From NCBI RefSeq assembly GCF_016820515.1, contig NZ_JADHDV010000001.1, positions 124,001 through 188,000 of the forward strand: a DNA stretch of 64,000 nucleotides. The letters are read 5' to 3'. A model generated the notes under the pieces. It saw only the letters and a program-made list of their open reading frames with translations, ran no database searches and had not been told where the DNA came from. Position 1 is the stretch's first letter. Every line of letters begins with the position of its first letter. A program made the translations under genes and the position numbers. Shown here one piece after another: positions 10,130 through 13,230 of this stretch. The stretch is from Pseudoxanthomonas beigongshangi. GTDB lineage: Bacteria; Pseudomonadota; Gammaproteobacteria; Xanthomonadales; Xanthomonadaceae.

Positions 10130-11262
10130 GCGATGTCGTCGAGCTTTCCAGCGAACTGATCCGTCGCCATTCGGTGACTCCCGATGACGCGGGCTGCCAG
10201 CAAGTGTTGGCCACGCGCCTGACCGCCGCCGGATTCCGTTGCGAATCCCTGCGCTTCGGCGATGTCGAAAATCTCTGGGCCACCCACGGCAGCGGTGCGC
10301 CGGTGCTGGTGCTGCTCGGCCATACCGATGTGGTTCCGCCCGGCCCGCTGGACGCCTGGACCAGCGATCCCTTCATCCCGACGTTGCGCGACGGCGTGCT
10401 GTACGGGCGCGGCGCGGCCGACATGAAATGCAGTGTCGCCGCCTGCACCATCGCGCTGGAGCGCTTCGTCGACGCGCATCCGGATCATCCCGGCACGGTC
10501 GCGCTGCTGGTGACCTCGGACGAGGAGGGCGACGCCCTGGATGGCGTGAAGCTGGTGGCCGAAACCTTCCGCGAGCGCGGCCAGCGCATCGACTGGTGCA
10601 TCACCGGCGAGCCTTCCTCCAAGGAGGTGCTGGGCGACCTGCTGCGCGTCGGCCGTCGCGGCACGCTCACTGGCACCCTGAGCGTGCGCGGGGTGCAGGG
10701 CCATGTGGCCTATCCGCACAAGGCGCTCAATCCGATCCACAAGGCGCTGCCGGCGCTCGCCGAACTCGCCGCGCGGGTCTGGGACGATGGCTACGAGACC
10801 TTTCCACCGACCAGCCTGCAGATTTCCAACATCAACGCCGGCACTGGCGCCAGCAACGTCATTCCGGGCGAGCTGAAGCTGGTGTTCAACCTGCGCTTCA
10901 ATCCCAGCTGGACCGCCGCGCGCCTGGAAGAGGAGATCGAGTCGGTGCTGCGCCGGCACGAACTGGACTACGCCATCCACTGGCACCGCGGCGGCGAGCC
11001 GTTCTACACCCCGGAAGGCCATCTGCGCGCCACCGCGCGCCAGGTGCTGGCCGAGTTCTCGGGCGCGCCACCGGAAGAGAGTACGGCGGGCGGTACCTCC
11101 GACGCGCGTTTCATCGCCCCGCTCGGGGCCGAGTGCATCGAGATCGGCCCGGTCAACGCCAGTATCCACAAGGTTGACGAGAACATCGTGGTGGCGGAGC
11201 TGGAAGCGCTTCCTGGCCTCTACCAGCGATTGCTGGAGCGGCTCCTGCTGCCGGCCGCCTGA
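10126..11262 (+). CDS. dapE: Succinyl-diaminopimelate desuccinylase
   Basis: DapE, a di-zinc M20-family hydrolase that cleaves N-succinyl-LL-diaminopimelate to LL-diaminopimelate and succinate, completing the branch begun by DapD. The 378 residues match the family. Metal and catalytic motifs are GHTDVVPPG (about 67-75), GRGAADMKC (about 95-103), TSDEEGDA with the catalytic Glu (about 129-136), and a late NASIHKVDE. The GTG start overlaps the previous gene's stop. About 90 nt separate dapE from the asn leader, which has its own promoter. Confidence 0.97.
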
Positions 11263-11314: not shown

Positions 11315-11344
11315 TTGCCAAGCCCCGCCGGGACCGGTTAGGGT
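11315..11344 (+). promoter_or_regulatory. Candidate promoter of the asn leader / asnB
   Basis: TTGCCA at 11315-11320 and TAGGGT at 11339-11344 are 18 nt apart. The -10 box ends 7 nt before the leader-peptide ATG at 11352, so the predicted transcript would start essentially at that ATG. No Shine-Dalgarno precedes the ATG. Confidence 0.5.
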
Positions 11345-11351
11345 CGCTTCC

Positions 11352-11447
11352 ATGCTTCGTCTCGCCACCGCCGCCGCGAACAATTCGAACCGCCGCAACA
11401 ATGCGCGTGCGAATAATCGTGCGTGGACGCTGCGGGTCTGCGACTAG
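11352..11447 (+). CDS. Asparagine-rich leader peptide of asnB (31 residues)
   Basis: A 31-codon ORF with seven Asn residues within thirteen consecutive codons (residues 10-22: NNSNRRNNARANN). Four of the seven use AAT, which is unusual for this GC-rich genome. It ends with TAG at 11445, 30 nt before an intrinsic terminator and 110 nt before asnB. Clustered codons for the product amino acid, tight spacing and overlap with competing RNA stems match the leader peptides of his, leu, thr and trp attenuators. The role is inferred: ribosomes stalling for charged Asn-tRNA would let asnB be transcribed. The ATG has no Shine-Dalgarno and may be leaderless. Confidence 0.85.
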   Translation: MLRLATAAANNSNRRNNARANNRAWTLRVCD

Positions 11448-11505
11448 GCATAGAAGTACCAGCCGGACACAGAAAACCCGCATCGCGAGATGCGGGTTTT
11501 TTTTT
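11393..11505 (+). promoter_or_regulatory. Asparagine attenuator (alternative stems 1:2, 2:3, 3:4)
   Basis: Three competing pairings can be read. Stem 1:2 pairs CCGCA (11393-11397) with TGCGG (11431-11435), with an inner GCGT:ACGC (11405-11408 with 11427-11430), inside the Asn-codon region. Stem 2:3 pairs TGCGGGT (11431-11437) with ACCCGCA (11476-11482) as an antiterminator. Stem 3:4 is the terminator. A ribosome stalled on the Asn codons masks segment 1 and frees segment 2 for segment 3. A ribosome at the stop codon masks segment 2 and lets the terminator form. Pairings are seen; the mechanism is inferred from classical attenuators. Confidence 0.82.
11473..11505 (+). terminator. Attenuator terminator in the asnB leader
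   Basis: An 8-bp stem CCCGCATC / GATGCGGG with a GCGA loop is flanked by AAAA and followed by nine T (11497-11505). It lies between the leader peptide and asnB, with no gene ending just before it, which argues for regulation rather than simple 3' end formation. Confidence 0.92.
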
Positions 11506-11556
11506 CGCCCTTCGCCAGCCCTTCCTCTCCCAACCCCATTTCCCAGGAGTTTCCCC

Positions 11557-13230
11557 ATGTGTTCCATCTTCGGCATTTTCGGCCTGCAGGCCGGTGACGA
11601 CGCCACCGTCCTGCGCCGGCAGGCGCTGGAACTTTCCCAGCGGCAGCGCCATCGCGGCCCGGACTGGAGCGGCGTGCATCTGGACGACGGCGCCATCCTC
11701 GTCCACGAGCGCCTGGCGATCGTCGATCCCGCCGGCGGTTCGCAGCCGCTGCGCTCGGCCGACGGCGGCCTGGTGCTGGCGGTGAACGGCGAGATCTACA
11801 ACCACCGCGAGCTGAAGAAGGAACTGCGCCAGCCCTACGCGTTCCAGACCGGTTCGGACTGCGAAGTGATCAACGCGCTGTACCGCGAAGACACCCCGGA
11901 GTCGTTCCTCAACCGCCTCAACGGCATCTTCGCGTTCGCGCTGTGGGACGTGGCCGCGCGCCGTTTCCTGATCGCACGCGACCCGATCGGCGTGTGCCCG
12001 TTGTACTGGGGACACGATCGCGAAGGCCGCCTGTGCGTGGCCTCGGAGATGAAGGCACTGGCGGATCTGTGCGCGGACGTCGCGCAGTTCCCGCCGGGGC
12101 ATTACTACGACAGCGCCAGCGGCGAACTGAAGCCGTACTACGGCAAGGCCTGGCGCAGCTACGACGCAGTGCAGGGCGTGGAAGTCACCCGCGAGGAGCT
12201 GCGCGAGGCGTTCGAGCGCGCCGTGCATCGCCAGCTGATGACCGACGTGCCGTACGGCGTGCTGTTGTCCGGCGGCCTGGATTCCTCGCTGGTCGCGGCG
12301 GTGGCCGCGCGTTTCGCGCGGCGCCGGGTGGAGGACGATGACACTTCCGAAGCCTGGTGGCCGCGTCTGCATTCCTTCGCGATCGGCTTGAAGGGTTCCC
12401 CGGATCTGGCCGCCGCGGAGGTTGCCGCGCAGGCGCTGGGCACCGTCCACCACGGATTCGAGTACACCTTCGAGGAAGGCCTGGACGCGCTGCCTGAAGT
12501 GATCCGCCACATCGAGACCTACGACGTCACCACCATCCGCGCTTCCACCCCGATGTTCCTGCTCGCGCGCCGGATCAAGGCGATGGGCGTGAAGATGGTG
12601 CTGTCGGGCGAGGGCTCGGACGAAATCTTCGGCGGCTACCTGTACTTCCACAAGGCGCCGAACGCACGCGAGTTCCATGAGGAGCTGGTGCGCAAGCTGG
12701 ATGCGCTCTACAACTACGACTGCCTGCGCGCCAACAAGTCGATGATGGCCTGGGGCGTGGAGCCGCGCGTGCCGTTCCTCGACGTCGAATTCCTCGACGT
12801 GGCGATGCGGATGGACGCGCAGTACAAGATGGCCGGAAAGGGCCGGATCGAGAAGGCGGTGTTGCGCGAGGCGTTCGAGGGTTACCTGCCGGATTCGATC
12901 CTGTGGCGGCAGAAGGAGCAGTTCAGCGATGGCGTCGGCTACGGCTGGATCGATGGCCTGAAGGCGCATGCCGAGGCCCAGGTCAGCGACCGCGAACTGG
13001 CGGCGGCGGACAAGCGCTTCCCGATCAACCCGCCCCGGACCAAGGAAGCCTATTACTACCGTAGCCTGTTCGAGCGCTTCTACCCCGGCCAGGCCTGCGC
13101 CGAGACGGTGCCGGGCGGCAAGTCGATTGCGTGCTCCTCGCCGGCGGCGATTGCCTGGGACGCCAGTTTCGCGGCGGCCGCCGATCCGTCCGGCCGGGCG
13201 GTGGCGGGGGTGCACAACGCGGCCCTGTGA
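11557..13230 (+). CDS. asnB: Asparagine synthase (glutamine-hydrolysing), AsnB
   Basis: AsnB makes asparagine from aspartate, ATP and glutamine. The 557 residues are close to E. coli AsnB. The N-terminal Ntn glutaminase domain begins MCSIFGIFG with Cys2 as nucleophile and has RHRGPDWSG, RLAIVDP and VNGEIYNH. The synthetase domain (from about 210) has the ATP-pyrophosphatase loop LLSGGLDSSL (about 237-246) and SGEGSDEIFGGY. The ATG at 11557 is fixed by the catalytic Cys2 and by CAGGAG upstream. The leader attenuator strongly suggests control by Asn-tRNA charging. A GC-rich inverted repeat overlaps the stop (13219-13237). Confidence 0.97.
   Translation: MCSIFGIFGLQAGDDATVLRRQALELSQRQRHRGPDWSGVHLDDGAILVHERLAIVDPAGGSQPLRSADGGLVLAVNGEIYNHRELKKELRQPYAFQTGSDCEVINALYREDTPESFLNRLNGIFAFALWDVAARRFLIARDPIGVCPLYWGHDREGRLCVASEMKALADLCADVAQFPPGHYYDSASGELKPYYGKAWRSYDAVQGVEVTREELREAFERAVHRQLMTDVPYGVLLSGGLDSSLVAAVAARFARRRVEDDDTSEAWWPRLHSFAIGLKGSPDLAAAEVAAQALGTVHHGFEYTFEEGLDALPEVIRHIETYDVTTIRASTPMFLLARRIKAMGVKMVLSGEGSDEIFGGYLYFHKAPNAREFHEELVRKLDALYNYDCLRANKSMMAWGVEPRVPFLDVEFLDVAMRMDAQYKMAGKGRIEKAVLREAFEGYLPDSILWRQKEQFSDGVGYGWIDGLKAHAEAQVSDRELAAADKRFPINPPRTKEAYYYRSLFERFYPGQACAETVPGGKSIACSSPAAIAWDASFAAAADPSGRAVAGVHNAAL

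Follow-up and report, generated by a model that had tools for sequence, protein, structure and literature searches.

What is a short, asparagine-rich reading frame doing directly upstream of the asparagine synthetase gene of Pseudoxanthomonas beigongshangi? The stretch of DNA that we analyzed (hereafter the window, 64,000 nucleotides, located in G000:C1) carries dapE (TIGR01246), whose stop codon lies at 11262, and asnB (11557-13230), which encodes a glutamine-hydrolysing asparagine synthase B of 557 amino acids and is preceded by the Shine-Dalgarno sequence AGGAG (11545-11549). All features described here are on the forward strand. The protein scores 881.7 bits against NF006949 (cut-off 499), and the nearest named locus, that of Pseudoxanthomonas sp. 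z9 (L046), encodes an AsnB that is 99% identical. Between the two genes lies an ORF of 31 codons (11352-11447, translated as MLRLATAAANNSNRRNNARANNRAWTLRVCD and a stop), followed by a hairpin of 14 pairs and nine T. Seven of its codons, starting at 11379, 11382, 11388, 11397, 11400, 11412, and 11415, specify asparagine, four of them as AAT, and all fall inside 13 codons (regulatory region 11379-11417, AAC AAT ... AAC ... AAC AAT ... AAT AAT). A preliminary description of the locus had read it as a leader-peptide attenuator for asparagine. The positions and counts that it gave for the ORF, for TGCGGGT (11431-11437) and ACCCGCA (11476-11482), and for the terminator whose nine T end at 11505 were all correct.

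A ribosome-mediated transcription attenuator of asnB should combine a short ORF enriched in codons for the product amino acid, an intrinsic terminator between this ORF and the gene, an exclusive antiterminator that shares the 5' arm of the terminator, and asparagine codons at such a position that region 2 is left free by a ribosome stalled on them and covered by one at the stop codon. The locus has these features, translation of the ORF being inferred rather than measured and the placement of the codons being assessed under an assumed ribosome footprint of 13 nt. We consider it very probable that an attenuator specific for asparagine controls asnB. The comparative evidence for it is strong, and it is evidence from sequences: ribosome stalling and the response of asnB to asparagine are inferred, in the absence of expression, term-seq, start-site, or ribosome-profiling data. 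In the mechanism that we propose, the first base of the transcript would probably be the A of the leader ATG, and the ribosome would enter at the free 5' end, with no need for a Shine-Dalgarno sequence. With plentiful Asn-tRNA, it would reach the stop codon and cover region 2, so that region 3 would pair with region 4 and transcription would end around 11505. With scarce Asn-tRNA, it would stall in the asparagine codons and leave region 2 free to pair with region 3; the terminator could then not form and asnB would be transcribed.

To place the locus among its relatives, we used 110 asnB loci, 30 from 61 genomes of relatives and 80 from a species-level collection. In 74 of them AsnB is at least 71% identical to that of the window, and in the other 36 the identity is 61-66%. 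An Asn-rich short ORF (at least three Asn in 13 codons) with a hairpin was found in 71 of the 74 closer loci, which is one part of the conservation on which the preliminary description had made its proposal depend. Within 13 codons, 64 of these 71 loci have at least five Asn, and seven have three or four. The loci missing the leader (L040, L053, and L072, with AsnB of 77-87% identity) come from records named Holophagales, Rhodococcus, and Deltaproteobacteria, and may be transfers or contamination.

The proposed promoter comprises a -35 element, TTGCCA (11315-11320), 37 nt before the leader ATG, and a -10 element, TAGGGT (11339-11344), 18 nt after the -35 element and ending 7 nt before the ATG. 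These elements place the transcription start at 11352, without any mapping of the start site. The same arrangement recurs upstream of the other leaders, where a conserved TTGC and a TA-rich block leave hardly any room before the ATG, and the position profile shows, between -15 and -7, a conserved block resembling GG(T)TA(G/C). When start codons were chosen blind to TTGC, 63 of 70 distinct leaders had this motif 35-37 nt upstream of their ATG; when they were chosen with TTGC in mind, the spacing held in 69 of 71, and 69 of the 70 distinct starts were ATG. The base at -1 is a C in 68 of the 70 leaders, compared with 70 of the 347 other ATGs in the same stretches. Among 32 further leaders (not identical to those of the first set, some of them near-copies of one another), 29 have the TTGC spacing and 30 the C at -1. 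Pairing with the anti-Shine-Dalgarno sequence is weaker at the leader than at the asnB start in 65 of 70 cases, with means of -3.46 and -6.45 kcal/mol, respectively. Together, the promoter spacing, the C at -1, and the weak Shine-Dalgarno suggest that the leader ORF is leaderless, which is probable but remains inferred, as there are no start-site data. The preliminary description had missed this apparent coincidence of the leader start with the transcription start.

The same attenuator might nevertheless have an ordinary 5' untranslated region, with transcription starting upstream of 11315 and translation at a weak or standby ribosome site. A scan for the E. coli type of sigma-70 consensus, against which TAGGGT is weak, found no promoter at 11315-11344, and the mean pairing of -3.46 kcal/mol at leader starts is also compatible with such a site. 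This reading leaves aside the TTGC spacing and the C at -1, present in both sets of leaders; such a spacing is expected where the start codon is the transcription start. We thus hold an ordinary 5' untranslated region to be unlikely, though it is not an alternative to be neglected. Returning to the leaderless start, we lean slightly towards a stronger proposal, in which promoter, transcription start, and leader ATG are locked together into a leaderless asparagine attenuator, the ribosome and the polymerase race from the first base of the transcript, and the arrangement is possibly general in the lineage. If the leaderless start is true, it would allow attenuation that dispenses with a Shine-Dalgarno sequence to be tested in Gammaproteobacteria. 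The terminated leader RNA may then itself be a small leaderless mRNA. We did not retain the idea that a leaderless leader ORF is wholly new: trpL of S. meliloti has one, according to the accessible part of PMC7298713.

Is the leader translated, and does it read asparagine? We aligned 67 leader peptides. The best two columns of this alignment show Asn for 58 of 66 leaders and for 62 of 67, respectively, encoded by AAT in 32 and by AAC in 26 cases in the first column and by each of them in 31 cases in the second. The amino acid thus stays the same as the third base varies freely, an indication that the leader is translated. Codon choice has a bias of its own: 200 of the 461 Asn codons in leaders are AAT, versus 93 of 630 over the initial 1650 bases of asnB at the same 71 loci (Fisher p 8e-26). 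The enrichment could tune sensitivity or reduce structure, and it provides a handle on whether a slower or rarer codon has been chosen for sensitivity.

The position of the asparagine codons was studied with a footprint model of 68 leaders, which assumes a ribosome edge of 13 nt and gives the probability that regions 2 and 3 pair ahead of the synthesis of region 4. The mean probability is 0.89 for an A site positioned on Asn codons. Relative to the last Asn, it is 0.92 two codons before, 0.79 at that codon, 0.41 two codons after, and 0.19 three codons after; it is 0.00 with the ribosome at the stop codon, largely by construction. The downstream limit of 2:3 formation coincides with the end of the Asn codons, and the geometry put forward in the preliminary description, where a stall frees region 2 and a ribosome at the stop covers it, fits the model. 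Stalls before the Asn cluster also free region 2, hence the model is informative for the downstream limit alone. Two leaders, L063 and L065, show no 2:3 pairing in the model; with their last Asn close to the C-terminus of the peptide, the interval set for region 2 was probably misplaced. In the absence of a ribosome, the 2:3 probability is 0.0 in the window, and 24 of the 68 leaders have values below 0.5. The leader folded alone pairs region 2 with 11361-11365, and this fold changes once region 3 is included. As for region 1, the preliminary description had proposed that CCGCA (11393-11397) pairs with TGCGGGT (11431-11437). The motif exists, but the predicted folds pair it with 11402-11409, and we rejected it as region 1; transient pairing is not excluded.

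The tolerance of the model for early stalls leaves room for a leader that senses slow translation in general, under stress, antibiotics, or stringent conditions, since in the model region 2 becomes free whether the ribosome stalls in the Asn cluster or at any earlier codon. Such a general sensor would not account for Asn making up 19.6% of leader residues, compared with 1.85% in four large genes of the window, nor for an Asn identity that survives synonymous change in front of a gene whose product makes asparagine. We find this explanation improbable, and keep the reading of a leader specific for asparagine.

The way in which tRNA-Asn is charged fits this reading. AsnRS exceeds the cut-off in 58 of 61 genomes, that of the window included, and GatA does so in 11 of the 61 and in none of the 37 of the genus. 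The presence of AsnRS without GatA leads us to infer that tRNA-Asn in the genus is probably made only from free asparagine. Its charging should then report directly on the product of asnB, which would give a clean reading. That asnB is the only asparagine synthetase could not be retained: asnA is absent from the genome, but two other proteins pass the TIGR01536 asparagine synthase model (though not the AsnB model), hence asnB may not be the sole source of asparagine. As a side observation, none of the 11 GatA-positive genomes has an AsnB match at 1e-100, suggesting that, in the order, one route to Asn-tRNA takes the place of the other.

We then come to the hairpins. In the window, region 2, the 5' arm of the antiterminator core, is TGCGGGT (11431-11437) and sits in the last codons of the leader ORF. 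Region 3 (11471-11484), which contains ACCCGCA, serves both hairpins, the antiterminator as 3' arm and the terminator as 5' arm; region 4 (11489-11502) is the 3' arm of the intrinsic terminator, with a stem of 14 pairs in the predicted fold, and the U tract of nine T spans 11497-11505. A possible extension of the antiterminator (11437-11449, pairing with 11462-11473) was predicted in the fold of the window only. The 173-nt stretch at 11340-11512 folds better than its shuffles (z = -3.61), with 1 of 200 shuffles equally good.

Both exclusive helices are supported by comparison. We aligned 55 of the 70 distinct leader stretches (alignment A1) after omitting 15 by hand. These were mostly near-copies (L002, L008, L009, L011, L013-L017, L020, L021, L023, L025, and L037); L045 was also left out, without good reason. 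In this alignment, 93.9% of the cells of the terminator are paired and 7 of its 12 pairs have changes on both sides. The antiterminator that the preliminary description had drawn between TGCGGGT and ACCCGCA is borne out, with 84.2% of cells paired and changes on both sides in 6 of 10 pairs, and versions of this helix slid along the alignment pair in only 30-43% of cells. The covariation of each helix exceeds that of all 500 shuffles; these numbers are not probabilities because the rows of A1 are related. The covarying stems that the preliminary description had suggested looking for in relatives are thus there. In Lysobacter ruishenii (L058), for instance, region 3 has T for C and region 2 a matching A, and the terminator takes a G-U pair. 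A swap test that needs no alignment, done on 62 leaders, gave -20.48 kcal/mol for regions 2 and 3 of the same leader and -17.29 (sd 0.41) for swapped ones, with 0 of 2000 swaps as low. Within the 33 leaders of the ACCCGC terminator group, no swap out of 2000 was as good, and there was no signal in the AGCCCGC (11 leaders, 308 of 2000 as good) and GGCCCGC (17 leaders, 937 of 2000) groups.

This covariation bears on a third possibility, that the terminator is constitutive, or that the terminated leader acts elsewhere, as a small RNA or a small mRNA, the control of asnB being minor. There is a precedent, as the first bases of rnTrpL of S. meliloti are the ATG that opens its uORF, and this RNA has a function in trans (PMC7298713, from what is accessible of this paper), and a trans-acting role can hold in addition to an attenuator. 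As a replacement for the attenuator, it explains neither the 2:3 covariation nor the tie of the leader to one clade of AsnB, and we give it a little less credit still than a general sensor of slow translation. The notion that an Asn-rich frame happens by chance or composition to precede a terminator can be set aside, being refuted by the conservation in 71 of 74 loci and at odds with the probability of at least seven Asn in 13 codons (1.2e-9 per such stretch at an Asn frequency of 1.85%), a count reached by only 1 of the 709 window ORFs of at least 15 codons, where the runners-up have 4.

How far does the proposed asparagine attenuator extend? One fixed rule was applied to both sets of loci. 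It asked for three or more Asn within 13 codons, for a strict terminator downstream of the ORF, and for an ATG in frame with TTGC 35-37 nt upstream of it, and was passed by 65 of the 71 leader loci and by none of the 36 loci at 61-66% AsnB identity. The strict terminator alone was met by 66 of the 71. Judged only on their number of Asn, 8 of the 36 distant loci reach three, with a maximum of five in L097 (Photobacterium iliopiscarium). The latter has an ORF of 26 codons, MRDFNNQRKSRSNININHHNDNLLAT, 54 nt upstream of asnB, without a strict terminator after it; the genome is AT-rich, so this ORF is perhaps due to chance. The leader is present in 10 of 18 additional upstream regions; at the 8 loci without it, AsnB shows 61-69% identity.

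We also searched 397 genomes of the order with a covariance model of the leader (R1). Matches at E <= 0.01 were found in 367 of them and are uninformative because terminators alone match. From the genomes with weak matches, 22 were chosen by eye for follow-up, at least G376 and G410 being left out. At E <= 1e-8, counted by hand, 114 of the 128 genomes of the family of the window match. The 14 others comprise nine without AsnB at 1e-100, three with an AsnB of 65% identity and no leader, G357, which has a leader with seven Asn, and G347, which has an AsnB of 79% identity and no visible leader. In this last locus (L168) there is neither a leader nor an obvious terminator upstream, and the attenuator has possibly been lost. 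Two matches of the R1 type, L190 (on the side of a TonB receptor) and L180, were rejected, as they look like chance terminators. Across the class, in 114 genomes, the leader model gave matches at 1e-6 only in the two genomes of the family of the window.

In a FastTree phylogeny of 123 AsnB proteins, all 75 with the leader belong to a single clade of 79 rows, which has a local support of 99. Four rows of this clade, L040, L053, L072, and L168, have no leader, and the tree requires four changes. On this tree, the simplest account would be one gain in the ancestor of the leader-bearing clade, with losses afterwards.

The logic of classical leader-peptide attenuators is established knowledge. In Firmicutes, asn genes have T-box leaders, which sense the charging of tRNA-Asn and control transcription, as we propose for the asn leader, but bind the tRNA directly and have no translated leader peptide. 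No characterised leader-peptide attenuator for asparagine in Gram-negative bacteria was known to the preliminary description, and our own search of full-text literature, Rfam, and NCBIfam found none for this amino acid; most subscription papers and a 2004 survey of proteobacterial attenuators were outside its scope. The available parts of PMC2965389, PMC8632094, PMC2659441, PMC1262725, and PMC4833913 do not mention asparagine, and an AsnB2 gene of Xanthomonas appears in PMC3771888 only as a row of qRT-PCR data. The leader peptide matches no family of Pfam, PHROGs, or NCBIfam. Near the leader, no Rfam family reaches its gathering score, including the Trp, Thr, Leu, His, and Phe leaders; the best match below threshold is Leu_leader, with 21.8 bits (gathering 50). 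The mechanism is classical and its specificity for asparagine appears new, which would add asparagine to the amino acids sensed by a translated leader.

The closest analogs are the enteric trp, his, leu, thr, phe, and ilv attenuators, which, in the accessible parts of PMC2659441 and PMC1183508, have a short ORF rich in codons for the product amino acid, regions 2, 3, and 4 forming an exclusive antiterminator and an intrinsic terminator, and a biosynthetic gene behind. The asn leader differs from them by its amino acid, by preceding a single synthetase gene instead of a pathway operon, and by the proposed leaderless ORF. It shares with trpL of Sinorhizobium meliloti (rnTrpL/peTrpL) a uORF whose ATG would be the 5' end of the transcript (PMC7298713, same limitation), whereas trpL concerns tryptophan and an alphaproteobacterium. 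The uORF of cysS in Rhodobacterales (motif uORFC-8-2) is likewise a case of proposed ribosome-mediated attenuation for a new amino acid (PMC8632094, consulted in part), but for cysteine, a tRNA synthetase gene, and Alphaproteobacteria. The cysteine-rich uORFs of mycobacteria are also small ORFs devoted to one amino acid, proposed as attenuators in organisms with many leaderless transcripts, as far as the available text of PMC4633059 goes. They differ in amino acid and in phylum, cysteine and Actinobacteria. A later paper reportedly deals with leaderless polycysteine ORFs.

The genome of the window appears to have a second leader of this kind. The second-best match to the asn-leader model (2.3e-7) lies in L178 (G000:C9:59844-62952), where a leader ORF at positions 1433-1549 of the locus, MLHRHTPLTHDLRTAPSAASILVVVLITSPTGAGRTGV, is followed by a terminator and then by ilvC (TIGR00465). 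This leader for branched-chain amino acids is rich in I, L, and V instead of N. TTGACA lies 37 nt before its ATG and a C is at -1, i.e., the same apparent leaderless geometry. Leaderless leader ORFs may thus be the rule for the amino acid attenuators of this lineage.
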